Both the position numbers and the translations under genes were made by a program. The notes under the pieces are model-generated. The model did no database searches and had not been told where the DNA came from. It saw only the letters and a list, made by a program, of their open reading frames with translations. Source: Vibrio splendidus (GTDB lineage Bacteria; Pseudomonadota; Gammaproteobacteria; Enterobacterales; Vibrionaceae). Taken from it: 64,000 nucleotides of DNA. Positions 2,046-23,255 of this stretch are shown here, in pieces. Each line of letters starts with the position of its first letter. Positions within the stretch are counted from its first letter, which is position 1. The DNA is taken from positions 434,001 to 498,000 of the forward strand of contig NZ_AP025508.1 of the NCBI RefSeq assembly GCF_024347615.1, read 5' to 3'.

Positions 2046-2071
2046 TGGTGGCCCCTCCCAGATTTGAACTG
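2046..2071 (-). other. Island left junction: host tRNA-Ile 3' end plus 6-bp core
   Basis: On the minus strand this reads CAGTTCAAATCTGGG followed by AGGGGCCACCA: the T-loop, T-stem 3' strand, acceptor 3' strand and encoded CCA of a tRNA. The 20 bases 2046-2065 are exactly what the 56-nt tRNA fragment at 23160-23215 lacks. GAACTG at 2066-2071 is the shared core. The segment also matches the 3' end of the island's own tRNA (22714-22738) at 23 of 25 bases. I read it as one attachment junction. Confidence 0.88.
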
Positions 2072-2292: not shown

Positions 2293-3270
2293 TCAAGTTA
2301 GGTTTTCAGCAGTGAGCCGTTTAATCGATGGTTTAATCGCGTTTAAAGCCTCCCTGTATTTTTTCCCTTGGTATGCATTGAGTTGTTGTAGCTTTCCTAC
2401 TTGTGAACTCACGGAACTAAATACTTTAAGGTAATCTTCATATGCGCAGCGATCATCAGTAAATAAGGTGTTGAGATTGTGAACAGCACTTCTTATTTTT
2501 TTCTTCTCTTCTTTACCAAAGCTAGGACGGTTTCCATTAACCCCGACTCGATGCACGGTTTGGTGTGTACCATTGCCTAATACTTCATGTTTACTTTTAT
2601 TTGGTTCAACACCGTAATAGCGAAGCATTCCATAGATTGAGGCAATCACGGCACTAATTTCTTGTTTAGTCATATAAGACTTAGAAGATACTGTAATGTC
2701 ATCAACATATCTGGTGTAGGTAAGTTTTGCCTTTCTAAGGCGCAATACAAGAACCGATTCTTTCTCCCACATTATTAGGTTGGCTATGTAACTACTACAG
2801 ATCCCGCCTTGCGGTACGCTACCGTTTAAAGTCACTAGGCTTGTTAAGGTTTGCGCCACATCTTGAGGAAAACGGAATAAGCGCATAAACATTTTTTCGA
2901 CTTGATCGGCTTTAATCATAGGGAAATAGTTAGAAATATCCTCACAAATTAAAACTCTTCTTTTTGTGTGGTTTCTGACGTTTGTAATGTAGGAACGTCC
3001 ACTGATTGAACCTTGTATATATTCAGGGTAGATGACTTTTTTGAATATTTGATGCTGAAGCGTTCGGTGAACAGATTTTAGGGCTATATAAGCATCGTAG
3101 GTGATGCGTTGACCACCAGATTTCTTTTGCTGAATTTTGGCAACTCGGTAAAAGTCAGATGTGTTATTGGCTAAATGCTGAACTCTGCTTAACGGAAGTC
3201 GTAGTAAACGAGCGAGAGCATTAATGCTACCGATCGATTTGAATTTGTATTCAGGAATCTGAGTCATCAA
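2293..3270 (-). CDS. Retron-type reverse transcriptase
   Basis: 325 residues, normal for a retron RT and without a maturase domain. Visible RT motifs are ICEDISNYFP (motif A aspartate), SVPQGGICSSYIANLI (motif B) and YTRYVDDITVS with the catalytic YVDD near residue 190. A C-terminal stretch NGTHQTVHRVGVNGNRPSF resembles the retron-specific region ahead of the thumb. It would copy a structured RNA into msDNA. The start overlaps the upstream XRE gene by 20 bases, implying translational coupling. Retrons act as phage-defence modules with an accessory toxin; that role here is inferred from family and island context. Confidence 0.85.
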   Translation of the reverse strand: MMTQIPEYKFKSIGSINALARLLRLPLSRVQHLANNTSDFYRVAKIQQKKSGGQRITYDAYIALKSVHRTLQHQIFKKVIYPEYIQGSISGRSYITNVRNHTKRRVLICEDISNYFPMIKADQVEKMFMRLFRFPQDVAQTLTSLVTLNGSVPQGGICSSYIANLIMWEKESVLVLRLRKAKLTYTRYVDDITVSSKSYMTKQEISAVIASIYGMLRYYGVEPNKSKHEVLGNGTHQTVHRVGVNGNRPSFGKEEKKKIRSAVHNLNTLFTDDRCAYEDYLKVFSSVSSQVGKLQQLNAYQGKKYREALNAIKPSIKRLTAENLT

Positions 3271-3535
3271 TCAATTGATACATAAGTTTTTCTATCTTTG
3301 TAGTTAACTCATCACTCATAGGTAAATTTTGATCTTGAGAAGCAAGAAACATAAAAACAGATGTTGGAATGTCTAGTGCTGAGCACAAATCTTCAATAAG
3401 ACTCAAGTTTGGCTCTCTCTTTCCTTGCTCTAAAAGAGTTATATAAGAGGCACTTTTGCCAATCTTATCAGCCAAGTCTTTCTTGGATAGTTTTCTGTGC
3501 TTACGGCACTTCTCTAACGTATTTGAAAAATTCAT
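3251..3535 (-). CDS. XRE-family helix-turn-helix regulator next to the retron RT
   Basis: 94 residues. A Cro/C1-type HTH fills residues 8-62 (RKLSKKDLADKIGKSASYITLLEQGKREP), and the C-terminal third is acidic. It overlaps the RT start and follows an 83-aa gene by 22 bases, so the three genes probably form one operon. HTH-associated retrons are a recognised retron class (type VI in my memory of the scheme). It may be a repressor of the operon or part of the toxin-antitoxin pair; the sequence does not decide. Confidence 0.75.
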   Translation of the reverse strand: MNFSNTLEKCRKHRKLSKKDLADKIGKSASYITLLEQGKREPNLSLIEDLCSALDIPTSVFMFLASQDQNLPMSDELTTKIEKLMYQLIDDSDS

Positions 3536-3557
3536 AATAAAAAATTAATGGTCTACT

Positions 3558-3809
3558 TTACGAATTGATGATTGAGAATATTTTTTCAACAAGTTCAGCT
3601 CCTTTACAGATAACACCTATTAACACTCCAAACGTTTCTAAAATCTGACGTTTCGTTGTTTTAGAAGGTGCTTTCCCTTCAAGTTCTGCATTGATCTGGT
3701 TAAGTAAATTCTCTACCTTAAGTTTCGTACTGCTATCTATATCATCATGTTTCTCACGTAAAACTAATTCTAGTACTTCACGTGAGTTCTTTAAAATTTG
3801 AGTATTCAT
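3558..3809 (-). CDS. Small protein of unknown function, first gene of the retron-like operon
   Basis: 83 residues, not recognised. The start is supported by AAGAAGG about seven bases upstream of the ATG. The N-terminal half is charged and helical; the C-terminal 30 residues (LETFGVLIGVICKGAELVEK) are hydrophobic to amphipathic and could touch a membrane. Its place ahead of the XRE and RT genes makes it a candidate effector, but this is only inference from position. Confidence 0.55.
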   Translation of the reverse strand: MNTQILKNSREVLELVLREKHDDIDSSTKLKVENLLNQINAELEGKAPSKTTKRQILETFGVLIGVICKGAELVEKIFSIINS

Positions 3810-4324: not shown

Positions 4325-4966
4325 TCATAACTTGCCTTCAAGAATATCAAAGTACGTACCGCTAACAGATTTAGATAGAACACCGTGGACATCAAGTGCT
4401 AGGTTCGTAATGGTTCTTTTTTCTTTTTCAATGGTGACAATTCCTTCTGTTGCTTTAACTAAGAAATCTATAGTCGCTATTAGATTATTGATGTCATTTG
4501 GAGAAATGATTTTTTCATCAATAGGTCTTTTGTTTTCGTTTTTTTTCGTTGAAATATGTTTTTTTAAGGCATTGTTTTCCAACATGAGCAGTCTGTTCTT
4601 TTGCTCCAGAACTTCAATTTTTTCCTGAGGATTTAAACTTTGTAGAGCTTCTTTTCTTAGAGAGTTTAGTGATTTAGAGTCATCTGAATCATAATATTTG
4701 TGGTAGACCGAGCCGACAATGACCCAATAGGTACTGTTGGTGGCTAACGTTCTATGAGTAATGGCTCTCATGTTTACAGGAAGGTTTTCGTTGAAAATCT
4801 CAGCGCACATTTTTTGATAAGTAGTTTTGTTAGGGAAGTGAACTGAGTCGCATAAGGCTTTCATTTTGGGAACAACTATATCTTTGATACGTTGAACTCT
4901 ACCGTTGATCGTGGTTATTTGAGATGCTTTGAATCTATTCTCCCCCTTTAAGGCTCCTTTAGGCAT
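4325..4966 (-). CDS. gmtX: Gamma-mobile-trio protein GmtX-like
   Basis: 213 residues, the last gene of the recombinase operon. Its ATG overlaps the end of the 1037-aa integrase gene by eight bases, so the two are translationally coupled. I see no enzymatic motif. A charged, leucine-rich segment around residues 112-140 (EKIEVLEQKNRLLMLENNAL) should form a coiled coil. Small coiled-coil third partners are typical of multi-recombinase integration modules; the GmtX name rests on operon order (Y-Z-X) and size. Confidence 0.65.
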   Translation of the reverse strand: MPKGALKGENRFKASQITTINGRVQRIKDIVVPKMKALCDSVHFPNKTTYQKMCAEIFNENLPVNMRAITHRTLATNSTYWVIVGSVYHKYYDSDDSKSLNSLRKEALQSLNPQEKIEVLEQKNRLLMLENNALKKHISTKKNENKRPIDEKIISPNDINNLIATIDFLVKATEGIVTIEKEKRTITNLALDVHGVLSKSVSGTYFDILEGKL

Positions 4967-7900
4967 TGTTTTCCCCCGGTGGCTTTAGAGTAAGGTTGAG
5001 GTTGTTTTTTAGTGTGTCTTGAGTGTTTTTCTCGATTCGTTTTAGCTCAGTAGGCAAGTCATTAATGCTAACTCCTGTAACATCACAGATGCTTTTGATT
5101 ATGCCCTTGAACTCTGAAAGTAGGTCCCTTCCGGTTGGGACTTCGCCCATTAGAGCTTGAAATTGCCCTGTTTGTGCTAAAACTTTATTGCGAAGCTGAG
5201 TTACTTTTGCTTTTAGTTGAGGAGTGAGAAATTCATGGAAACTAATAGCCTCCTCTATGCGTATAAGGGTGTTAGTTAATTCGTTAGATGATTTTAACTT
5301 GGTCAGTTTATCCTGTATGAATTTAGGCTTACCGACTAACCATTTATCTTTTTTAGATAAGCTGTTAACCATTGAGTCTAAGCAAGTTAAAGATGTTGCC
5401 CATGCTGAGATTTCATCAGCATAAAACTTTTTTAAGGAAATATCATTTAAGTAAGCATCCATACTTTCGCCATTTTCTTTTGCTTCATTTATAGTGTCAT
5501 CATGCTCTGCGGCTTTATCCGTTAATAACCTGATTTTTGCGCTTATCGCAGGAATGTGATCAACCGTTTTTATCGAGTATGGGCATCCAGCACATGGGAG
5601 TTCCCCGTTGATGCTTTTTCCCGTAATGTCTGATGGGCAGTCATTATTAAAAGGACAAATATGTGTAGAGTTAAATGCCAGTTGGTCTACGATTGTAAAA
5701 CTGCTATCGGTACTAACATCTAATTCTTCTTGTTTCTTCTTAATAATCTGCATTCCGCTACAAGGAGATGTGGAATGACTATTTGTAAATGATATGGCCC
5801 CAAAATCATTCATTGCGATAGTTGCATTTCTAGAAAATGCTTGTTGTAAAGCTGATTGTTTGCTTTTGGCATCAACCATCATTGGAGCTATAAAGTCTTT
5901 AAACTCCGCTTCTTGGCCTGCTTTTTGAGTATCAAGATATTTTGTGTTGATTTGGGCATAATAGATTACTAGAGCTTCAGTTATGTGCCCAGTTACCCTT
6001 TGTAGGATTGAGGGAGGAAGTACAGTGATGTGTTCACTTACGAATTGAGAACGCATTGAGTGTGGAGTGATAGGTTTTTTGTTTTCATCTACATACCCCT
6101 TCAGGTGCTGTATGTTTTCATCAAGATTTTTGTCGTGATCAATTTTAATTGGAGGAATGTTGTTTTTACTTGATTTTGAGTAAGTGTATGAAAATCCAAT
6201 TAAAATTAATTTGAAGGCCTTCCTGTAGCTCTTGTCAGAAACCACCGAAAACGATGGGTTGATTTCTAAGTAAGAGTCTACCTGTGCAAATAATGGCTTG
6301 ATCATTTCGAAGCTAGTTTCTTCGTGGCTATCATAGTAGATAGGTACATCTTTGCCAGTGAGGAAAGTTCTTTTCCAGAATAGCTGTCTATCTAGTATTC
6401 CAATGACTGATTCGACAACATCGGCCTCCCAGGCGTCATGTGATTTGTCTGAATTTACCCATAGCTGAGTAATTAGATATGAATAATCAATGAAATGCTC
6501 TCTGTTAACATTTTGGGCGTATGTTTCTTCGTTTAGGAATCGTAAAGCTATTAACCGGATCCCTGTTTCTGCCATAACAATACTCAGGTGAATATAATGA
6601 GGGAGAAAGGTATGGGACTTAAGCTGACATTTTATATTTTGTCTAGTCCTAAACAGTGAGACAATTCTTTTCGGTATTTCCTCTATGGGGTAGTATTTAT
6701 GATTGCATCGAAAGATAGGTATAAACCCAGTATCACTGGTATTTATTGTCCTATTTGTAACGCGCTCCTTACTAATGACACTGTCTTTATTGGGATTATG
6801 GTGGTTCATGTACCAAATCCATTCAGCAACTCCGTAAAGGTACGATAGATAGGAAGAAAAGCTATCCTCAGGGAGTAGTTGTTTGACTGTACCCTTATGC
6901 CTAGGGACTATAGGGATATCAAGTTGTTTACTTATTGGAATCGTAAAGTTCTTATAGTTCATGGCTATATATTCGAAAAAACTATAGAGCTTGTATAAGA
7001 GTTCTTGGTGAGTGCTTGCTTTTACATTAACCCCCAGTCCCTTGACTATAATCTTTGCATGATGACGCTTGATATCTTTTGGTTCTGGTATTGGCTTTCC
7101 TGAGACGATAAGGATTTGCATCGCCCTTCTTATTGCCGATTGATATTTATCATAGGTTTTAATTCCTTTTTCTCTAAGTTCGTTAATGTAGCTGTTTATA
7201 TCTACTATCCAAGCTAGAATTGCTGGGTGTTGTTCAATTTCCTTAGGGTTAAAGTTCTTAGTTGATAACTTCCCTTTTATACCTGTAACCCCACTTCTGA
7301 CAAAAACATTACCCGTATCAAACTGTACCCTATTAGGAAGACTCGCATGGATGGCAAAATACCAGTCAACAGTTCTAGGAACTCCTGTAGGAGATTTACT
7401 GGTGATCTCCTTGAGCAGGTCATTGGTGATGTCTTCTACATCCCAAGCGGCACATGCACGAACGTATTTATGTGCGTACCATTTAAAGTTAGGCATTGAC
7501 GCTTCTGACATATGTTTGGTTATGTCAATTTCGCATTCGAGTTGCTTGAAAAAGGGTGAGCGAATTATTCTGAGAATCTCTGGATAAGCATCATCAGCGT
7601 ACTCTTCCATTGAGCCATTTTTACCGTGTTTTCGCTTGGGGAGGTCTGTAAAAAAAATAGGAAGTAAAAGAAATCTTGATGCCCAACAACAATGAATAAA
7701 TAGTCGCAAGTCAGAGCGTAAACCTCTGGCGTCATTCCGGGTTATGGTTGTGAACCTTGAGTATTTTGGTAAGACTTGATGAAAAATTTCTTTCGATTTT
7801 TGTGGGTCTTCATTCGCTAACTCATAGATTTTGTTTAGCCATGCGCTATCTAAGTTAAAGTCATCTTCAAACCCATCAAGGTATTTGAATATAGATAGCT

Positions 7901-8072
7901 TTGTATGGCCTAGACGAGCTTTCTCGTTTAACCCATCTTCCCGAGTTAGACTTTCGACGCCTTCTCTTTTACAGATCACTTTCTTAGTTAGATAAAGTGC
8001 GTTAAGAATATTGCCTCTTAATTCTGCTTTCTCACATATGACAACAGGCTTTCTTGTGTGGTTGAACAGCAT
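4959..8072 (-). CDS. gmtZ: Gamma-mobile-trio integrase GmtZ-like (large tyrosine recombinase)
   Basis: 1037 residues. A diverged tyrosine-recombinase core is visible: arginine in MAETGIRLIAL (near residue 503), TPHSMRSQF as the HxxR box (near 671), then VTGHITEALVIYYAQ with the putative nucleophile tyrosine near 704. After the core, HICPFNNDCPSD and LPCAGCPYSI (about 800-835) supply four cysteines likely to bind zinc. Most of the rest is helical. The start lies one base after the stop of the upstream recombinase gene. Together with GmtY and GmtX it should catalyse or assist island movement at the tRNA target. Confidence 0.75.
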   Translation of the reverse strand: MLFNHTRKPVVICEKAELRGNILNALYLTKKVICKREGVESLTREDGLNEKARLGHTKLSIFKYLDGFEDDFNLDSAWLNKIYELANEDPQKSKEIFHQVLPKYSRFTTITRNDARGLRSDLRLFIHCCWASRFLLLPIFFTDLPKRKHGKNGSMEEYADDAYPEILRIIRSPFFKQLECEIDITKHMSEASMPNFKWYAHKYVRACAAWDVEDITNDLLKEITSKSPTGVPRTVDWYFAIHASLPNRVQFDTGNVFVRSGVTGIKGKLSTKNFNPKEIEQHPAILAWIVDINSYINELREKGIKTYDKYQSAIRRAMQILIVSGKPIPEPKDIKRHHAKIIVKGLGVNVKASTHQELLYKLYSFFEYIAMNYKNFTIPISKQLDIPIVPRHKGTVKQLLPEDSFSSYLSYLYGVAEWIWYMNHHNPNKDSVISKERVTNRTINTSDTGFIPIFRCNHKYYPIEEIPKRIVSLFRTRQNIKCQLKSHTFLPHYIHLSIVMAETGIRLIALRFLNEETYAQNVNREHFIDYSYLITQLWVNSDKSHDAWEADVVESVIGILDRQLFWKRTFLTGKDVPIYYDSHEETSFEMIKPLFAQVDSYLEINPSFSVVSDKSYRKAFKLILIGFSYTYSKSSKNNIPPIKIDHDKNLDENIQHLKGYVDENKKPITPHSMRSQFVSEHITVLPPSILQRVTGHITEALVIYYAQINTKYLDTQKAGQEAEFKDFIAPMMVDAKSKQSALQQAFSRNATIAMNDFGAISFTNSHSTSPCSGMQIIKKKQEELDVSTDSSFTIVDQLAFNSTHICPFNNDCPSDITGKSINGELPCAGCPYSIKTVDHIPAISAKIRLLTDKAAEHDDTINEAKENGESMDAYLNDISLKKFYADEISAWATSLTCLDSMVNSLSKKDKWLVGKPKFIQDKLTKLKSSNELTNTLIRIEEAISFHEFLTPQLKAKVTQLRNKVLAQTGQFQALMGEVPTGRDLLSEFKGIIKSICDVTGVSINDLPTELKRIEKNTQDTLKNNLNLTLKPPGENNA

Positions 8073-10863: not shown

Positions 10864-10960
10864 TGAGTCTTGGTGTGCATAGGTACACACCGCCCGAAGA
10901 GCTCAATATCAAATTCTATGTTTACGAGCGATAGAGAAAGTCAGAGTATAGATCGGCCAT
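10864..10960. repeat. Left border repeat of the satellite-like array
   Basis: This 97-bp segment recurs, with small changes and a 12-bp length difference, at 12838-12946 on the other side of the array, in the same orientation. Both copies contain GGTGTGCAT, ACACCGCC, GAAGAGCTCAAT and the run CTATGTTTACGAGCGATAGA. The border copies suggest that the array expanded inside a pre-existing element. Confidence 0.85.
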
Positions 10961-12823
10961 GAACCTTACATCGATGTAAAAAGTGGAGTCAAAGCCAAAC
11001 AAAACGAGCGATACCCGCCCACCTATCGATCGGCCATGGGGTTTACAACGATATTAATTCACCGAGAACCCTTACGTGATAAGGGCTCTAAGCATCAGCT
11101 CATAGATCAGCCATGAAACTTACATCGATGTAAAAAGTGGAGTCAAAGCCAAACAAAACGAGCGATACCCGTCCACCTATCGATCGGCCATGGGGTTTGC
11201 AACGATATCAATTCACCGAGAACCCTTACGTGACATGGGCTCTAAGCATCAGCCCATAGATCAGCCATGAATCTTACATCGATGTAAAAAGTGGAGTCAA
11301 AGCCAAACAAAACGAGCGATACCCGTCCACCTATCGATCGGCCATGGGGTTTACAACGATATCAATTCACCGAGAACCCTTACGTGACATGGGCTCTAAG
11401 CATCAGCCCATAGATCAGCCATGAACCTTACATCGATGTAAAAAGTGGAGTCAAAGCCAAACAAAACGAGCGATACCCGCCCACCTATCGATCGGCCATG
11501 GGGTTTACAACGATATTAATTCACCGAGAACCCTTACGTGATAAGGGCTCTAAGCATCAGCTCATAGATCAGCCATGAAACTTACATCGATGTAAAAAGT
11601 GGAGTCAAAGCCAAACAAAACGAGCGATACCCGTCCACCTATCGATCGGCCATGGGGTTTGCAACGATATCAATTCACCGAGAACCCTTACGTGACATGG
11701 GCTCTAAGCATCAGCCCATAGATCAGCCATGAATCTTACATCGATGTAAAAAGTGGAGTCAAAGCCAAACAAAACGAGCGATACCCGTCCACCTATCGAT
11801 CGGCCATGGGGTTTACAACGATATCAATTCACCGAGAACCCTTACGTGACATGGGCTCTAAGCATCAGCCCATAGATCAGCCATGAACCTTACATCGATG
11901 TAAAAAGTGGAGTCAAAGCCAAACAAAACGAGCGATACCCGCCCACCTATCGATCGGCCATGGGGTTTACAACGATATTAATTCACCGAGAACCCTTACG
12001 TGATAAGGGCTCTAAGCATCAGCTCATAGATCAGCCATGAAACTTACATCGATGTAAAAAGTGGAGTCAAAGCCAAACAAAACGAGCGATACCCGTCCAC
12101 CTATCGATCGGCCATGGGGTTTGCAACGATATCAATTCACCGAGAACCCTTACGTGACATGGGCTCTAAGCATCAGCCCATAGATCAGCCATGAATCTTA
12201 CATCGATGTAAAAAGTGGAGTCAAAGCCAAACAAAACGAGCGATACCCGTCCACCTATCGATCGGCCATGGGGTTTACAACGATATCAATTCACCGAGAA
12301 CCCTTACGTGACATGGGCTCTAAGCATCAGCCCATAGATCAGCCATGAACCTTACATCGATGTAAAAAGTGGAGTCAAAGCCAAACAAAACGAGCGATAC
12401 CCGCCCACCTATCGATCGGCCATGGGGTTTACAACGATATTAATTCACCGAGAACCCTTACGTGATAAGGGCTCTAAGCATCAGCTCATAGATCAGCCAT
12501 GAAACTTACATCGATGTAAAAAGTGGAGTCAAAGCCAAACAAAACGAGCGATACCCGTCCACCTATCGATCGGCCATGGGGTTTGCAACGATATCAATTC
12601 ACCGAGAACCCTTACGTGACATGGGCTCTAAGCATCAACCCATAGATCAGCCATGAATCTTACATCGATGTAAAAAGTGGAGTCAAAGCCAAACAAAACG
12701 AGCGATACCCGTCCACCTATCGATCGGCCATGGGGTTTACAACGATATCAATTCACCGAGAACCCTTACGTGATAAGGGCTCTAAGCATCAGCTCATAGA
12801 TCAGCCATGAAACTTACATCGCA
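10961..12823. repeat. Satellite-like array: twelve 154-bp units in a 462-bp higher-order repeat
   Basis: The marker GAANCTTACATCG starts at 10961 and then every 154 bases (11115, 11269, 11423 and so on) to 12809. The variable base cycles C, A, T, and other differences (TTTACAAC/TTTGCAAC, GATATTAA/GATATCAA, TGATAAGG/TGACATGG) cycle with it, so three units form a 462-bp higher-order repeat present four times. Each unit has two related halves, GATCAGCCATGAA and GATCGGCCATGGG, and a perfect 14-bp palindrome TTACATCGATGTAA. No ORF of note runs through it. The near-identity of the 462-bp copies implies recent amplification. Confidence 0.97.
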
Positions 12824-12837
12824 GAAATAATGCTCGT

Positions 12838-13026
12838 TGAGTATTGGTGTGCATCGGTGTGCAGCAGTACACACCGCCTTCGAAGAGCTCAATTTCAGAG
12901 TCTATGTTTACGAGCGATAGAGAAAGTCAGAGTATAGATCGGCCATGGGGTTTACAACGATATCAATTCACTGAGAGCCCTTACGTGATAAGGGCTCTAA
13001 GCATCAGCCCATAGATCAGCCATGAA
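12838..13026. repeat. Right border repeat plus partial array unit with an intact hairpin
   Basis: 12838-12946 matches the left border (10864-10960). It runs on into a partial array unit in which AGAGCCCTTA (12974-12983) and TAAGGGCTCT (12989-12998) form a perfect 10-bp stem with a 5-nt loop. The array units carry mismatched versions of this stem (GAACCCTTA; ACATGGGCTCT), so the border copy looks closer to the ancestral form. Confidence 0.85.
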
Positions 13027-13058
13027 CTATGATAACGAGAATCCGACTAACGCACACA

Positions 13059-13811
13059 TTATAAGGAAATTAAAATTTTCTTTGATGGATCGAAACTCGA
13101 AACTTCTTCATAGCCAACGTATCCACGCTGGTTTGTATGGAATTTAATATTGAAATCAGAGAATTCCATACAATCATGGTTGTGTCCGTAGAACCAGACC
13201 GCAATTTTGTCAGCAAGATCTGAAAATTCATCACATTGAGAGGCAAATGCAGGACCAAGTGGGCTACCCAAGTATTCAAGTTGTATTCCTTCTCTAGATG
13301 GAAGGTGGTGGGTAACGACAACATTGACATCCTCTTTGGCTTGACTTATTGATTCGTAAAGGAAATGCCTAGATGTTTGGTGAAGTTCTCTCGCATCCAA
13401 TGGTGAAAATGGCTTTCCATGATATTGAATTTTTCGATAGTCATTCAAGCCTGAACGAGCTAATTTCATAGAGTCTTTAGGGGTCTCATAAAGTTCGAAA
13501 TCAGTCCACAAAGTACACCCATGAAATCTAACACCATTGATTACAACGCTATCGTTTTCAAGAAAGTATACGTTGGAATAACGTTCAGCTCTGCTCCTAC
13601 ATTCTTCTATCAATAGCTCTAGCGATGAAGCACCATAGGCCTCATGATTACCTAGGACATACACAACAGGCACATCAAATTGTGCCGCCCAATCAATTCC
13701 TTTAGTGCCGAGGTGAATGTCTCCACTAAGTACGACGACATCTGCGTCAGTTTGCGGGAACTCCATTGGACCAAATTCCAAATGAAGATCAGAGAGATGG
13801 CAGATTTCCAT
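13059..13811 (-). CDS. Calcineurin-like metallophosphoesterase
   Basis: 250 residues with the full set of metal-binding motifs in order: SDLHLEF (DxH, residue 7), LSGDIH (GD), GNHEAYG (GNHE), THHLPS and GHNHD. These coordinate a two-metal centre that hydrolyses phosphoesters. There is no signal peptide, so it is cytoplasmic. The substrate cannot be told. It stands alone, preceded by an AT-rich gap and followed by the repeat array. Such phosphoesterases occur in defence islands, but no partner gene is adjacent. Confidence 0.88.
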   Translation of the reverse strand: MEICHLSDLHLEFGPMEFPQTDADVVVLSGDIHLGTKGIDWAAQFDVPVVYVLGNHEAYGASSLELLIEECRSRAERYSNVYFLENDSVVINGVRFHGCTLWTDFELYETPKDSMKLARSGLNDYRKIQYHGKPFSPLDARELHQTSRHFLYESISQAKEDVNVVVTHHLPSREGIQLEYLGSPLGPAFASQCDEFSDLADKIAVWFYGHNHDCMEFSDFNIKFHTNQRGYVGYEEVSSFDPSKKILISL

Positions 13812-14959: not shown

Positions 14960-17215
14960 TTAGTTCTTATCTCTAAAGTAATTAGTAATTTCTGTTGTAA
15001 AGTTGTTTTGACCTGAACCGTAACTTTGTCCATTTGAGCTGAATGGAGGGAAATCATGGCGTTCAACATTATATTCAACTATCGCTTCGAAATCACAAAG
15101 GTGCACTAGACCTGAAATTAAATCATCCAGATATTCACCTTGCGGAATTTTGATAGAATCTAAATCTTCTGACAAAAACTCAATTAATGGCTGTCGGCTA
15201 ATTGAGGATATCTCGGTAAAGCTATAGTAGTTTGAGAAAATATCAGAATCGATTATCAAGTTGGTTAGCTCATCTTTATAATATTCATAGATATTTTTAT
15301 ACAAAGTGTCAAAATTCTCATCGTTTAAAATATTCATCTTATCCATAATTTGAGATAGCTCGATGAAATAAATGTCATCGTATTGTTCTGCTAGCACAGA
15401 TAAAACAAAATCATGTAAGTTCTCATCATTACTATCAATTATTTTACAGTTTATTAGGTGAAATATCACTCTCAACTGTTCATCATTAACTAATTCATAA
15501 TTAAATATAGTTGAAGCTAAATCTTCTAAATATTTAGAGAATATAGTTTTGGTATGAAAGTTTGGTGTCTTTATTATTAGGTTAGCAAGAGTTCTATGAT
15601 ACTTAGAATATACACTTTCTGGTTTAGCTAAAGAAGCAAGGCAAGTAATATATGCATCATGATCTATTATCTTATGAATTTTATACTCTTGAAGAGTAAC
15701 CAGTGAGCGATCAGTTTTTAGTATGTTAAAAATTGAAGATAGATATTCAATGTTTTTTGAATACTCGCCTAATACAAAATCAGAAATAGAAGGGTTAAAC
15801 AAATCATAATGAACTTGATTGTCATAACCAATATGTCTATTTATAAGTGAACCAATTACAAGTTTAATTGTAGTTTCGTATGACTCATCTATGTTTGGAT
15901 GAACGTTTGAACCCAACAAGCGATAAAAATAATCTGTGCATTGCGCTGATGTCATTCTCCCACCGTTTAAGACTATACCAACGACTAAATGGTTACATAA
16001 CTTGTTTGTCTGATTTGTGAAAACATGCCGCCAGATATCCTTTGGGTTCCTGAGGGTGTCTATTACATAATCCCAGTAATCATTTGGGCTAACCTCATCT
16101 AACCTGCAAGCGTCAGTTACGAACTCGATAAGCCGCGGGTTAAAGTTTGCATGGTCAATAACTTGAAAGTATCTTAAATCTTTTGTTAATTCTTCTCGGT
16201 ATTCATGGGTTAAATCACTGAACCAAATATGGTTGTATAAAATTTTCGCTTTTTCAAACCTAGTTAAATTTCCAGCGTTTATTTGAATTTCATGAGTTGA
16301 TATTTTAACTCTATCAAACAACTCTGTTAAAAGTTTACTTTGTTCGAAAATGTTTGTTCTAGTTGTAAGTATAAGTTTTTTAGAGGGATCTTGCCTAATT
16401 CTAGTTATGAGGTGACTAAGCGTAACATCTTCTTTGTTTTCAATTCTTTTTAAATAGTTGCTTCCAAGAAAATCGTCATATAAATATACTTGTTTTTGAT
16501 TTTCATTATATATCTCATCAATCTCATCAATACTATTTAATATATAGAAAAATGCATATCCTCTGGTTGTGTATATTTTGCACATTTGCTCAGCAAGAGT
16601 TGTTTTTCCTATTCCAGCATTACCTGTTATTAATATTATGTTATTGGTGTCGAGTGTGCTTTCAGATTTCTCGTGAACCAATGTTTTCACATAAAAGCTA
16701 CTTTTAGAAATGATCTCTTCTAATTTGAACTTACTTCTCACATGTGTTGCATTGTTAAGCATTCGATTTATAACATTTGTACTGTTTATCCAAAGGTTAT
16801 AATATTTTAATTCTATACCTTCGTGTTGGCTAAGTAGGCTGTTAATATCCTCGTTTCCGATTATATCCTTAATATCTTTGATGTATGGTGCAAACGCTAA
16901 CTTGATATCTAATTTGTTTTTGTGAGAAAGTTCGATAGACGTAGCTAAAATATACCTAGCAGGGTTAAGTTTGTTTACTTTATCAACTTCATTTTTTTTT
17001 AGTTCTTTGATTAATGCTGTGATCCCTGATTTTATCCAATGCTTACTTTGGATAATCGTAACGTCTCCATTGTTATCGACACTTCTTCCGTCAATACCTT
17101 GATCACGACCTTGCTTATATGACTCAACAAATTGCCCGTCTCTTTTTTCTATAAGATCATTAACTAACTCTTCAAATTCTTTATCATTGATTGTAGAAAA
17201 ATCATAGTGCGACAT
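14960..17215 (-). CDS. Mrr-like nuclease fused to a STAND NTPase (probable phage-defence protein)
   Basis: 751 residues. The N-terminal part (1-110) has a restriction-endonuclease fold signature: FEELVNDLIEKRDG, then GRDQGIDGRS and IIQSKHW, giving the D...QxK catalytic pattern. A P-loop NTPase follows: Walker A GNAGIGKTTLAE near 200 and Walker B VYLYDDFLG near 247. The C-terminal 400 residues are helical, as in sensor regions. This matches nSTAND-type defence proteins that are activated by phage products and then cleave DNA. The gene is strikingly AT-rich compared with the flanking core, and it stands alone. Activity and trigger are inferred. Confidence 0.82.
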   Translation of the reverse strand: MSHYDFSTINDKEFEELVNDLIEKRDGQFVESYKQGRDQGIDGRSVDNNGDVTIIQSKHWIKSGITALIKELKKNEVDKVNKLNPARYILATSIELSHKNKLDIKLAFAPYIKDIKDIIGNEDINSLLSQHEGIELKYYNLWINSTNVINRMLNNATHVRSKFKLEEIISKSSFYVKTLVHEKSESTLDTNNIILITGNAGIGKTTLAEQMCKIYTTRGYAFFYILNSIDEIDEIYNENQKQVYLYDDFLGSNYLKRIENKEDVTLSHLITRIRQDPSKKLILTTRTNIFEQSKLLTELFDRVKISTHEIQINAGNLTRFEKAKILYNHIWFSDLTHEYREELTKDLRYFQVIDHANFNPRLIEFVTDACRLDEVSPNDYWDYVIDTLRNPKDIWRHVFTNQTNKLCNHLVVGIVLNGGRMTSAQCTDYFYRLLGSNVHPNIDESYETTIKLVIGSLINRHIGYDNQVHYDLFNPSISDFVLGEYSKNIEYLSSIFNILKTDRSLVTLQEYKIHKIIDHDAYITCLASLAKPESVYSKYHRTLANLIIKTPNFHTKTIFSKYLEDLASTIFNYELVNDEQLRVIFHLINCKIIDSNDENLHDFVLSVLAEQYDDIYFIELSQIMDKMNILNDENFDTLYKNIYEYYKDELTNLIIDSDIFSNYYSFTEISSISRQPLIEFLSEDLDSIKIPQGEYLDDLISGLVHLCDFEAIVEYNVERHDFPPFSSNGQSYGSGQNNFTTEITNYFRDKN

Positions 17216-17554: not shown

Positions 17555-19711
17555 GTGCGACGTGAAGTCGTATGAAGCGCTGTTCACCGCTAAACGAGTG
17601 AACCATCTGTATCACCAGATGAACCTAGGAGCCTGAATAAAGTAGCGGCTTTGACAATGTAACGAAGGTTGGTATTTTCCAATCGGGATTGAAATCGTGA
17701 GAGAACGATCCTCCTGATAACCACAACATCGGGTGAGTGCTAGGTAGTCAGCATGATGAACAGAAGTGAATCCGCGTAAGGTGCGTTATGTTGTGAAACA
17801 GCGGAAGTGGTTAATACGCTGTAGCCAAAAGGCACGAGAGTCGGAAAGAGATTGCCCCATGCTCTTTCGTGATCATTGAACTCTCCGCACCATAGCGGGC
17901 ATCTAAACTGACATTGCGTGACATACGGAACACGGTAAGCCTGTATCTCTCCCTACGGGAAAGCCCCTGTGGCCGATAGTGATGCGGGTAGAGGAGGTTG
18001 GAAAAAGCAAAGGCTGCATTGTAATGACGCAGATACAGGTTTGTGCCTGATCACGAAAGTGAGCCCACTTCCAACTGGTCTCTCGTTGCGAGAGAGTTTG
18101 AAGAACTTTATTAAGGAAGAAAAGCAAATGACGATTTCGAATGAGATTAGTGCATCTTCTGACAGTGCACTGTGGCAATCCATTAACTGGAAGGCCGCAG
18201 AGGCGAACGTCTTAAAGCTTCAAATGCGTATCGCAAAGGCAACTAGAGACGGTAAACACGGCAAAGCAAAAGCATTGCAGTGGATACTGACTCACTCTCG
18301 CTCAGCAAAACTTCTTGCTGTTAAGCGAGTTTCTCAAAATAAAGGCAGTAAAACGCCTGGAATAGACGGCGTTGTCTGGAATACAGACACGCGTCGTATG
18401 AAAGCAGTAAATCAACTGAGTCGGAAAGCTTACCAAGCGAAACCACTCAGGCGTATCTATATCCCCAAAAAGAATGGCAAGCTTCGACCTCTGGGCATAC
18501 CATGCATGATAGACAGAGCACAACAAGCGCTACACCTATTATCGCTAGAGCCTATATCAGAAACAACTGCCGACCCGAATAGTTATGGCTTTAGAACAAA
18601 TCGTAGCACGGCTGACGCTGTCGACCAGTGCTTCAAGTGTTTGGCTTTAAAGAAATCGGCTAAATGGGTTCTTGAAGGAGATATTAAAGCTTGCTTCGAC
18701 AAAATAGGGCATCAATGGCTTATGGATAACATCGCCATCGATAAACGGATGTTGGAGCAATGGCTAAAGTCAGGCTTTGTAGACAAAGGGCTGTTTTACG
18801 ACACCGACGAAGGCACTCCTCAAGGCGGAATTATATCCCCCACCTTGATGTTGATGACGTTATCGGGTCTCGAACAGCGCATTAAGTCTACCGCGCTTAA
18901 GAAAGGAGCAAGAGCTAACTTTATTGGATATGCCGACGATTTCGTCGTCACTTGCGCTTCAAAGGAAGTACTCGAGAACGATATCAAACCGTTGATTGCT
19001 GATTTCTTAGCGGAAAGAGGCTTAACATTATCCGAAGAGAAAACGCACATTACTCATATCAACGATGGCTTTGACTTTCTTGGGTTCAACCATAGGAAGT
19101 ACAAAGGGAAACTGCTCATCAAGCCGAGTAAATCCAATACGTTGATGTTCTTAAGCAATCTGCGTGAACTCATCAAAAAGCACGTAACCCTTCCAGTGAA
19201 TGATCTTATCAAACTGATAAATCCTAAACTCAGGGGATGGTCGAACTATTATCGGCACTGCGTAGCTAAACAGGTATTCGGATATGTCGGTCACAAACTA
19301 TTCCATACGTTATGGCACTGGGCTAAAAGGCGTCATCCAACAAAGTCTAAAACTTGGATTGCCCTAAAATACTTCATCAACCGAAAAGGCCAATGGCAGT
19401 TTCACGGTTGGCAGAAGATCATGGATATGGATTGCCAGTTCAATCTCTTCCAAATAGCCAAAGTGCCAATAGAAAGGCATGTGAAAATCCGAAGTGCAGC
19501 GACACCCTTTGACCCTCTTTACCAAGAATACTTGGTAAAGAGAAAATCTAAAAGGCTAGCTCGTAACTCTTGGAACGAACCTGCTTCGACTGCTTTATAA
19601 GTTGCTGGGTATCAAACGATGCCTTCGTGGAGGCTTGAGCCTAGTGCAGTGAAAGTTGCACGCTGGGTTCTTAGGGAGACGGCACTTGGTAACAAGTGTC
19701 GTCCACCCGAC
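17555..19711 (+). mobile_element. Complete group II intron (2157 bp) with maturase gene
   Basis: The 5' end is GTGCGACG at 17555. The 3' end is AC at 19710-19711, after domain V and domain VI. Domain V reads GAGCCTAGTGCAGTGAAAG and continues to GCACGCTGGGTTC (about 19635-19670), with the AGC triad and GAAA loop. Domain VI is the hairpin GACGGCACTTG-GTAA-CAAGTGTCGTC (about 19678-19703). The boundary is supported by EBS1 GCCCCA (17854-17859), the exact complement of IBS1 TGGGGC (17549-17554). The ribozyme and the maturase are both intact, so it could still splice and retrohome. The exons join in a non-coding stretch. Confidence 0.9.
18128..19600 (+). CDS. ltrA: Group II intron reverse transcriptase/maturase
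   Basis: 490 residues from the ATG at 18128, which follows AAGGAAG by eight bases; the frame is open further upstream, but that part is intron domain sequence. RT motifs: LEGDIKACFDKIGH (motif A), TPQGGIISPTLM (motif B) and IGYADDFVV (catalytic YADD). After the thumb, a maturase X domain (LRGWSNYYRHCVAKQVFGYV) is seen. The C-terminus lacks an obvious HNH nuclease. It folds and splices the intron RNA and primes retrohoming. Confidence 0.93.
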   Translation: MTISNEISASSDSALWQSINWKAAEANVLKLQMRIAKATRDGKHGKAKALQWILTHSRSAKLLAVKRVSQNKGSKTPGIDGVVWNTDTRRMKAVNQLSRKAYQAKPLRRIYIPKKNGKLRPLGIPCMIDRAQQALHLLSLEPISETTADPNSYGFRTNRSTADAVDQCFKCLALKKSAKWVLEGDIKACFDKIGHQWLMDNIAIDKRMLEQWLKSGFVDKGLFYDTDEGTPQGGIISPTLMLMTLSGLEQRIKSTALKKGARANFIGYADDFVVTCASKEVLENDIKPLIADFLAERGLTLSEEKTHITHINDGFDFLGFNHRKYKGKLLIKPSKSNTLMFLSNLRELIKKHVTLPVNDLIKLINPKLRGWSNYYRHCVAKQVFGYVGHKLFHTLWHWAKRRHPTKSKTWIALKYFINRKGQWQFHGWQKIMDMDCQFNLFQIAKVPIERHVKIRSAATPFDPLYQEYLVKRKSKRLARNSWNEPASTAL

Positions 19712-22713: not shown

Positions 22714-23033
22714 TGGTGGCCCCTCGCAGACTTGAACTGCGGACCAATCGATTCAGTTTATCCAATACTTTCGTAAAGGGCTGGACTATATCATCATCCT
22801 CGCATTGCGGTGGGATGTCGGACGCTAGTGTTGTATTACACAGCAAGATCGTGCTGAACCAACTAGTCTCTGAACCTTCCTTTCACGCTTGAAAGGCTTG
22901 GCTGCTGATTGGCTTGGGATACTTATTTATCCGGTAGCTTTCCAGCAATTCATCCGATTTTTCCATATGTCATTACTAACATAGGTCACAACTTAATATG
23001 AGTCGACTGCTCTAACCACTGAGCTAAGGGGCC
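22714..23033 (-). tRNA. tRNA-Ile(CAU) carrying a group I intron
   Basis: The 5' exon is 22998-23033 (36 nt, starting GGCCCCTTAGCTCAGTGG and ending in the anticodon CAU). The 3' exon is 22714-22753 (40 nt, ending GGGGCCACCA). Joined, they give a 76-nt cloverleaf: anticodon stem GTCGA/TCGAT, loop CTCATAA, T-stem CGCAG/CTGCG. GGCCCC...CAU matches the tRNA-Ile2 type, in which C34 is changed to lysidine to read AUA. Compared with the broken host copy it has compensatory changes (28-42, one T-stem pair), so it looks selected and functional. The only unusual feature is the intron between U36 and A37. Confidence 0.95.
22754..22997 (-). ncRNA. Group I self-splicing intron in the tRNA-Ile anticodon loop (244 nt)
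   Basis: In order on the minus strand: P element AATTGCTGGAAAGC (22937-22950), Q AATCAGCAGCC (22900-22910), R GGTTCAGAGACTA (22864-22876) and S GATGATATAGTCC (22783-22795). These are close to the family consensus. The 5' exon ends in U and the intron in G, as required. Intron nucleotides 6-12, GUUGUGA, act as guide: GUGA pairs with exon UCAU (with the U-G at the splice site) and GUU with the first three 3'-exon bases AAU. No homing endonuclease is encoded. A tRNA-Ile(CAU) group I intron is known from Azoarcus, at the same anticodon. Confidence 0.95.
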
Positions 23034-23159: not shown

Positions 23160-23215
23160 GAACTGGGGACCGAACGATTATGAGTCGTGCGCTCTAACCA
23201 CTGAGCTAAGGGGCC
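23160..23215 (-). pseudogene. Host tRNA-Ile(CAU), 5' part only (split by the island)
   Basis: 56 nt from GGCCCCTTAGCTCAGTGG through anticodon loop CTCATAA to the T-loop start CCCCAGTTC; then island sequence begins (TTATTGGGG). The missing 20 nt are at 2046-2065. As it stands it has no acceptor 3' strand and cannot make a tRNA. Pair 27-43 is C-U, which may be natural or early decay. Confidence 0.92.
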
Positions 23216-23226
23216 GTAGGGCATAG

Positions 23227-23255
23227 ATTATAGGGGAACCAATCAATGGTGTCTA
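23227..23255 (-). promoter_or_regulatory. Promoter of the host tRNA-Ile gene
   Basis: Read on the minus strand: TAGACA, 17 bases, TATAAT, then CTATGCCCTAC before the tRNA 5' end. The 17-base spacing and near-consensus hexamers make this a strong sigma-70 promoter. It now reads into the tRNA fragment and onwards towards the island tRNA. Confidence 0.8.

Follow-up and report, generated by a model that had tools for sequence, protein, structure and literature searches.

The split tRNA-Ile(CAU) gene and its intron

The window analyzed here is a 64,000-nucleotide stretch of a Vibrio splendidus contig (NZ_AP025508.1, positions 434,001 to 498,000). Its minus strand carries, at positions 22714 to 23033, a tRNA-Ile(CAU) gene that is interrupted directly after the anticodon by a group I intron (Table 1). 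The boundaries proposed in the initial annotation (36 nt, 244 nt, and 40 nt, minus strand) proved exact. When joined, the exons form a 76-mer that folds as a cloverleaf (-33.6 kcal/mol; z score, -4.1; equaled by 0 of 200 shuffles) and obtains an ARAGORN score of 123.3. Five listed matches in E. coli, with 87 to 88% identity, are all annotated as tRNA-Ile, so that CAU here denotes a tRNA-Ile2 of the lysidine type. As had been anticipated, a plain tRNA scan overlooks the gene: ARAGORN without its intron mode finds 0 tRNAs in the window, and a genome annotated by such a standard scan therefore seems to be devoid of tRNA-Ile(CAU). The intron mode, which had been suggested as a check, recovered positions 22714 to 23033, but the isotype was named Gln(CUG) or Met(CAU), depending on the option.

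The Rfam group I intron model (RF00028), also suggested as a check, matched positions 22762 to 23009 of the minus strand over all 253 model positions with 93.9 bits (cutoff, 50; E value, 7.1e-23), which together with the cloverleaf of the joined exons bears out a tRNA-Ile(CAU) gene with a group I intron. The proposed splicing elements are all present in the window, i.e., a U preceding the 5′ splice site, a G closing the intron, and a guide that pairs with the 5′ exon (GUGA with UCAU). The P10 pairing of the guide with the 3′ exon (GUU with AAU) is present in the window as well, but all three such pairs occur in just 9 of the 27 CAU introns of other genomes.

A structure was predicted from a sequence-only alignment of 15 pre-tRNAs (the window, 13 other bacterial loci, and one phage), with helix names assigned in this analysis. 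In each predicted helix, 97 to 100% of the cells pair, a percentage favored by deriving the structure from the same alignment, and double changes are the stronger part of this evidence. Such two-sided changes were found in the acceptor stem, the anticodon stem, the T-arm, P1, P2, P3, P4, P6a, P8, P9, and an extra hairpin between P7 and P3′; none were seen among the 15 pre-tRNAs in the D-stem and the 3-pair helix P6. The pseudoknot partner of P7 appears as conserved letters in the RF00028 model alignment. Across isotypes, the guide tracks the exon weakly (170 of 5,000 permutations equal, for positions near the 5′ site and five distinct exon ends), and a wider guide-exon test over 45 intron positions gave no signal (1,108 of 2,000 permutations equal). 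From these features, the window pre-tRNA is predicted to splice. The Azoarcus tRNA-Ile(CAU) intron is inserted at the same position, after CAU; compared with this type, the window intron has the extra hairpin (pre-tRNA nt 178 to 193) between P7 and P3′, which the Azoarcus intron is not known to have.

Table 1. Features of the split tRNA gene and of the island in the window
Feature	Position	Strand	Details
attR: host tRNA-Ile(CAU) 3′ end, nt 51-76	2046..2071	-	Same CAGTTC core as attL
Retron-VI-like cargo: reverse transcriptase, HTH protein, small protein	2293..3809	-	PADLOC RT_VI 236.8 (RT_V 236.1), HTH_VI 90.3, SP_VI 38.6 bits
213-aa third protein of recombinase module	4325..4966	-	In a row with the recombinase
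1037-aa second protein of recombinase module	4959..8072	-	Weak integrase match near residues 651-873
Tyrosine recombinase, 466 aa	8074..9474	-	Phage_integrase PF00589, 53.1 bits
Metallophosphoesterase, cargo	13059..13811	-	PDC-S10 match
Mrr-nSTAND3 protein, candidate defense gene, cargo	14960..17215	-	PDC-S73 match
Group II intron, cargo	17603..19711	+	Maturase 17969-19600
3′ exon, split tRNA-Ile(CAU)	22714..22753	-	40 nt = tRNA nt 37-76, CCA included
Group I intron, G-terminated	22754..22997	-	244 nt; RF00028; covariation in 15 pre-tRNAs
Internal guide GUGA	22986..22989	-	Pairs with exon UCAU (P1, U-G at splice site)
5′ exon, split tRNA-Ile(CAU)	22998..23033	-	36 nt = tRNA nt 1-36, anticodon CAU at its end
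attL: host tRNA-Ile(CAU) remnant, nt 1-56	23160..23215	-	T-arm and 3′ acceptor lost
Recombination core CAGTTC at attL	23160..23165	-	Followed by element sequence TTATT
Promoter-like site before cut host tRNA	23227..23255	-	11/12; 1 found vs 1.4 expected in region shuffles

The island and the host gene that it cuts

The split gene lies inside a 21-kb island, near its attL end, and a remnant of the host tRNA-Ile(CAU) gene is located 126 bp upstream. At attL, host nt 1 to 56 end in ...CCCCAGTTC and continue into TTATTGGGG; at attR, ...CCCCACATAACAGTTC precedes AAATCTGGGAGGGGCCACCA, and the core common to both is the 6-bp CAGTTC. When the outer flanks are rejoined, they align to the uninterrupted locus of V. 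splendidus 12E03 over the full 1306 bp with 92% identity. Junctions, remnants, and empty site thus all agree with the Vibrio island setting that had been proposed. The features of tRNA-dependent integration are found here, i.e., an attB within a host tRNA gene, a short core, and a host tRNA that is not rebuilt: the T-arm and acceptor are not restored by the island, and the remnant extended with the next element bases folds only slightly better than shuffled sequences (z score, -1.2; 28 of 200 shuffles equal). No consensus promoter was found by the promoter scan directly before the split gene, and the promoter-like site upstream of the cut host tRNA could read through into it.

The same locus might be read as an ordinary tRNA-site island that restores the host gene, situated beside an unrelated intron-bearing native tRNA, and 3′-end fragments of tRNA-Ile(CAU) do occur in five Vibrio genomes with an intact gene (G060, G061, G084, G202, and G220). 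This reading is contradicted by the junctions, since the cut at nt 56 leaves the host gene unrestored, the split copy is inside the element, and no second complete copy was found in the genome; we consider it highly improbable.

Three genes in a row, including that of the 466-aa tyrosine recombinase, form the recombinase module, and the same row is present in Vibrio sinaloensis (63 to 69% identity) and in Vibrio sp. 10N.286.49.B1 (33 to 39%). In islands of the gamma-mobile-trio type (GmtY/GmtZ), a recombinase gene is likewise accompanied by genes for another large protein and for a small one, but assignment to this family was rejected, the GmtY and GmtZ models reaching 29.2 bits (cutoff, 340) and 17.5 bits (cutoff, 600). 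At an E value of at most 1e-40, the 466-aa recombinase was found in 3 of 227 Vibrio genomes, all among the four with the same split-Ile anatomy; at this threshold it is absent from Vibrio tasmaniensis (G213), although attL is the same there. At an E value of at most 1e-30, a sample of 369 genomes of the class contained it only once, in the genome of the window, which indicates that the recombinase lineage is narrow and the tRNA arrangement wider. Capsid, portal, and terminase genes gave no match in 15 island ORFs searched with Pfam and 10 searched with PHROGs, and one 122-aa island protein matched a PHROG named tail assembly; by the measure used for tRNA-dependent lysogeny, the island does not count as a temperate phage.

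Several further observations concern the cargo. The island holds both intron classes, group I and group II. The retron-VI-like set adjoins attR, and a relative of its three genes (33 to 48% identity) is present in the V. sinaloensis island. At positions 10941 to 13027 of the window, inside the island, a 154-bp unit is repeated in tandem about 12 times; this array lacks long ORFs, and its units are mostly 95 to 99% alike and grouped by threes into a higher order.

The only complete tRNA-Ile(CAU) found in the genome

The genome is assembled in two contigs and is 100% complete. RF00005 yielded 133 tRNA matches (150 of 470 candidates scored), and ARAGORN, run on all 133 regions, called 13 CAU tRNAs, i.e., 9 fMet and 4 Met, and no Ile(UAU), Arg(UCU), or Arg(CCU), in an output where every gene appears two times. 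When the joined tRNA served as the query against the whole genome (all 16 candidates scored), 13 matches were obtained, corresponding to the two exons, the host fragments nt 1 to 56 (23160 to 23215) and nt 51 to 76 (2046 to 2071), and nine weak matches to other tRNAs. As far as searched, the split gene is the only complete tRNA-Ile(CAU) in the genome. The initial annotation was right about intron, tRNA, position, and island and missed that this is the sole copy, replacing a host tRNA cut by the island. The genome encodes TilS, and AUA codons are used in rpoD (1) and dnaG (5); from this codon use and TilS, tRNA-Ile(CAU) is apparently essential to the host. The split gene could conceivably be a decaying pseudogene, with AUA read by other means. 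However, it retains a full cloverleaf and compensatory changes in exons and intron, TilS is kept, and no further Ile(CAU) or Ile(UAU) tRNA was found; given the sole copy and the covariation, we regard decay as hardly credible and dropped it.

The same genome carries a second split tRNA, in a second island, that the initial annotation also overlooked, along with the recurrence in other genera described below. This locus (L002, G000:C1:2876468-2876803, minus strand) is a tRNA-Arg(UCU) whose group I intron separates nt 34 from nt 35, and it is the only Arg(UCU) gene found in the genome. The Arg island spans about 17 kb and has a host remnant at each end, nt 4 to 28 upstream and nt 23 to 72 about 17 kb away. 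One genome would thus have passed two host tRNAs, Ile(CAU) and Arg(UCU), to islands with split replacements. A separate 34-nt fragment, 97% like nt 1 to 34 of tRNA-Arg(UCU), lies far from the Arg island (G000:C1:1430754-1430787, plus strand).

Recurrence in Vibrio

In the set of 227 Vibrio genomes, RF00028 with stricter filters gave matches in 13, of which 12 contain a total of 13 split tRNA genes. Four of these genes are Ile(CAU), split after nt 36, and the others are Arg(UCU), split between nt 34 and 35 in three and after nt 36 in six. A truncated host copy is located just upstream on the same strand in 10 of the 13; the other end of these 10 is on the same contig, 12 to 33 kb off, in eight and on another contig in two. 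The anatomy of the window is reproduced in V. sinaloensis AD048, Vibrio sp. 10N.286.49.B1, and V. tasmaniensis 1F-187, in the last over two contigs. The remaining three split genes, all Arg (G070, G110, and G114), had no host remnant in the stretches examined. Those in G110 and G114 have upstream genes in common with native Arg loci, and a promoter sequence of native appearance can be recognized by eye in G114; in these cases, either the intron entered a native gene or the attL duplication collapsed. Three close group I intron matches in G070 (L054, L055, and L056; G070:C19:151389-152422), two of them over the cutoff, are apparently in a protein gene.

A 76-nt pattern found one uninterrupted tRNA-Ile(CAU) in 194 of the 227 genomes. 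The other 33 comprise G000 (the window's genome), G081, G143, G163, and 29 more that were searched; in 27 of the 29, a single full-length uninterrupted copy is present, and no other fragment lies closer to it than about 1.5 kb. The gene is uninterrupted in 221 genomes and cut in 6, with a split replacement in G000, G143, G163, and G213 and an intron-less, more divergent one in G081 and G035. In the two latter genomes (L089 in G081, L382/L383 in G035), tRNA-Ile(CAU) is cut near nt 22 to 28 by other elements.

Recurrence beyond Vibrio and in phages

An intron-core pattern applied to an 84,980-species collection returned 83 stretches, of which 80 loci were listed. With the 5′ site set to the one closest to the intron core, a tRNA can be assembled from the flanks of 50 of these 80 loci: 27 CAU, 5 Arg(UCU), and 18 others (Asn/Thr ambiguous, Leu, and Lys). 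In 18 of 27 CAU loci, 2 of 5 Arg loci, and 0 of 15 loci of other isotypes, the split gene is preceded, at a distance of no more than 400 nt, by a 5′ fragment of the same tRNA. Among loci with at least 200 nt of upstream sequence, the counts are 17 of 25 CAU and 0 of 15 others (P = 1.2e-5); the 27 CAU loci include three Vibrio loci already counted (15 of 24 without them) and four near-identical ones (L188, L206, L220, and L221). Among the 18 CAU remnants, 7 are T-loop cuts with the junction printed, all reading GTTC and then TTAT; 3 reach nt 57 (L193, L201, and L243), 7 end at nt 42 to 43, and 1 (L244) ends elsewhere.

Outside Vibrio, 12 genomes were searched, and five of them show remnant, split gene, and 3′ piece in this order on a single contig, 8 to 34 kb apart, namely, those of Pseudoalteromonas, Shewanella, Alteromonas lipotrueiana, Paraglaciecola, and Alteromonadaceae Bs31. 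Their 3′ pieces measure 24 to 46 nt (E values, 1e-10 to 6e-4), and the junctions were read in three. In the other 7 of the 12 genomes, which are drafts or have divergent tRNAs, no 3′ piece was found on the same contig. The Pseudoalteromonas junctions imply an attP of CCACATAA-CGGTTC-TTATGTGG, an inverted repeat around the core. The Bs31 element (L389) is only 7.7 kb long, with the same kind of attL/attR and split tRNA; by eye, its genes encode DNA methylase, SNF2-like helicase, HNH, and GHKL-type proteins. A tblastn search of this element for the 466-aa recombinase gave no homologue. The element is perhaps a defective form or one that borrows a recombinase.

In a FastTree phylogeny of 80 introns, 25 of them viral, the window intron groups with that of V. 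sinaloensis (support, 1.0) and the V. tasmaniensis intron with that of Vibrio sp. 10N.286.49.B1 (0.998). The RpoD protein adjoining the island shares 99.2% identity with its V. splendidus 12E03 counterpart and 100% over 380 aa with that of V. tasmaniensis 1F-187, which places the host in the Splendidus group; hosts with near-identical RpoD thus carry different element lineages, which points to horizontal spread. Bacteroidota CAU introns fall in other groups of the tree, so that the arrangement probably arose more than once, and some of these CAU tRNAs may be tRNA-Met, not Ile2.

Klebsiella jumbo-phage introns are placed beside the gammaproteobacterial CAU group with low support (0.66). Split tRNA-Ile(CAU) genes occur in Klebsiella Alcyoneusvirus phages (phiKp_21, Muenster, KP13-7, and RCIP0023 among the matches listed); those of phiKp_21 (L005:1501-1818) and Muenster (L170:601-918) are unannotated and lie in jumbo-phage tRNA clusters. 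The phage copies in these two sequences are 71% identical to the window over the pre-tRNA, with the intron at the same position, but they are set in a tRNA cluster and their joined exons are not called by ARAGORN. A scan of viral contigs (at least 120 stretches) found that 0 of 89 pattern matches split a tRNA among the 80 contigs listed, a count that includes false negatives because the joined jumbo-phage tRNA is itself missed by ARAGORN. The accessible part of a 2014 review places all phage introns known until then in protein genes (PMC3984707).

Proposed mechanism and role of the intron

Very probably, the island has cut the sole host tRNA-Ile(CAU) gene and supplies a split, self-splicing replacement as the only copy of the cell. 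We propose that the island would integrate by its tyrosine recombinase into the T-loop of the single host gene, recombination via the core leaving nt 1 to 56 at one end and nt 51 to 76 at the other; since this core is only about 6 bp, the host gene would not be rebuilt. The replacement, split after the anticodon, would be brought in just inside attL in the same direction. Its transcription, perhaps by read-through from the host tRNA promoter, and subsequent self-splicing would yield the sole tRNA-Ile(CAU), which TilS would convert into an AUA reader. An apparently essential host tRNA gene would thereby have been handed to a presumably mobile element and would now depend on a ribozyme.

How the intron came to be part of this arrangement allows different readings. 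We give about even chances to its being a neutral passenger, replacements being recruited from phage or other tRNA pools that happen to hold introns, with no advantage. The related intron of the Klebsiella jumbo phages at the same position of tRNA-Ile(CAU) and the intron-less replacements at two of the six cut Vibrio loci agree with this, and group I introns are considered potentially neutral in the accessible part of a review (Hausner 2014, PMC3984707). In contrast, introns are found in 4 of 6 recognized replacements and in 0 of 221 uninterrupted copies (Fisher P = 1.4e-7). This comparison is limited by the kinship among the species, by the selection of the window for its intron (3 of 5 without it), and by the fact that any intron-less replacement similar to the host gene would have passed as uninterrupted (within the 194). 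Moreover, the Arg(UCU) replacements are split too, with other introns and at other sites, which also speaks against a passenger.

Alternatively, and rather less plausibly in our opinion, the intron may act as a shield at the DNA level, disrupting either the target of the recombinase or the homology with the host remnant and thereby sparing gene and attL from self-integration and recombination, with splicing mending the RNA. In Paraglaciecola, which belongs to the class cut at the anticodon, the attL/attR core ACTCATAATCG spans the insertion point 36/37 and favors a shield there, as do the seven CAU remnants ending at nt 42 to 43; the window's T-loop core, at nt 51 to 56 and about 14 nt from the intron, does not. 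Over the aligned part, 16 of the 18 remnants are at least 93% identical to the split replacement, compared with 77 to 80% to the tRNA query for the intron-less replacements, a contrast that comprises only two intron-less cases and is partly forced, as the screen is blind to intron-less replacements resembling the host gene.

Tentatively, and with some doubt, the intron could be regarded as a working part of the element, serving as a lock on the DNA to which splicing holds the key on the RNA. If so, the split gene and attL would be spared from the element's own recombinase, from other tRNA-targeting islands, and from recombination with the host remnant, the tRNA still being normal, and bacterial tRNAs in such elements would keep group I introns as gene protection.

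Comparison with known systems

Both parts of the arrangement have precedents. Introns in tRNA-Ile2, the same tRNA as in the window, have been reported in Acidovorax and Burkholderia, and the accessible part of that report mentions no tie to an element that cuts a host tRNA (PMC8450103). Among the matches listed in the open-access literature, no title or abstract joined tRNA-dependent integration with a split replacement, so that the recurrent combination of these known parts appears new; it also offers a possible reason for the scattered group I introns of bacterial tRNA-Ile2 genes.

The closest likeness is to the tRNA-dependent lysogeny of actinobacteriophages, for which tRNA-Ile2-CAT is among the listed targets (Guerrero-Bustamante and Hatfull 2024, PMC10865867). 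In the accessible text, the authors leave its prevalence elsewhere open and mention one Lactobacillus prophage. As described there, both systems share a tyrosine recombinase, an attB in a host tRNA gene, a short core (about 10 bp in the actinobacteriophages and about 6 bp here), a host tRNA that is not rebuilt, and a cognate tRNA supplied by the element. They differ in the element, which is here a Gram-negative island in which candidate defense genes but no virion module were found. In the present case, moreover, a group I intron splits the replacement; the word "intron" appears once in the main text of that paper, in the reference list (PMC10865867). Beyond actinobacteriophages, our results would thus add islands of Gammaproteobacteria, and probably of Bacteroidota, to the known range of tRNA-dependent integration.
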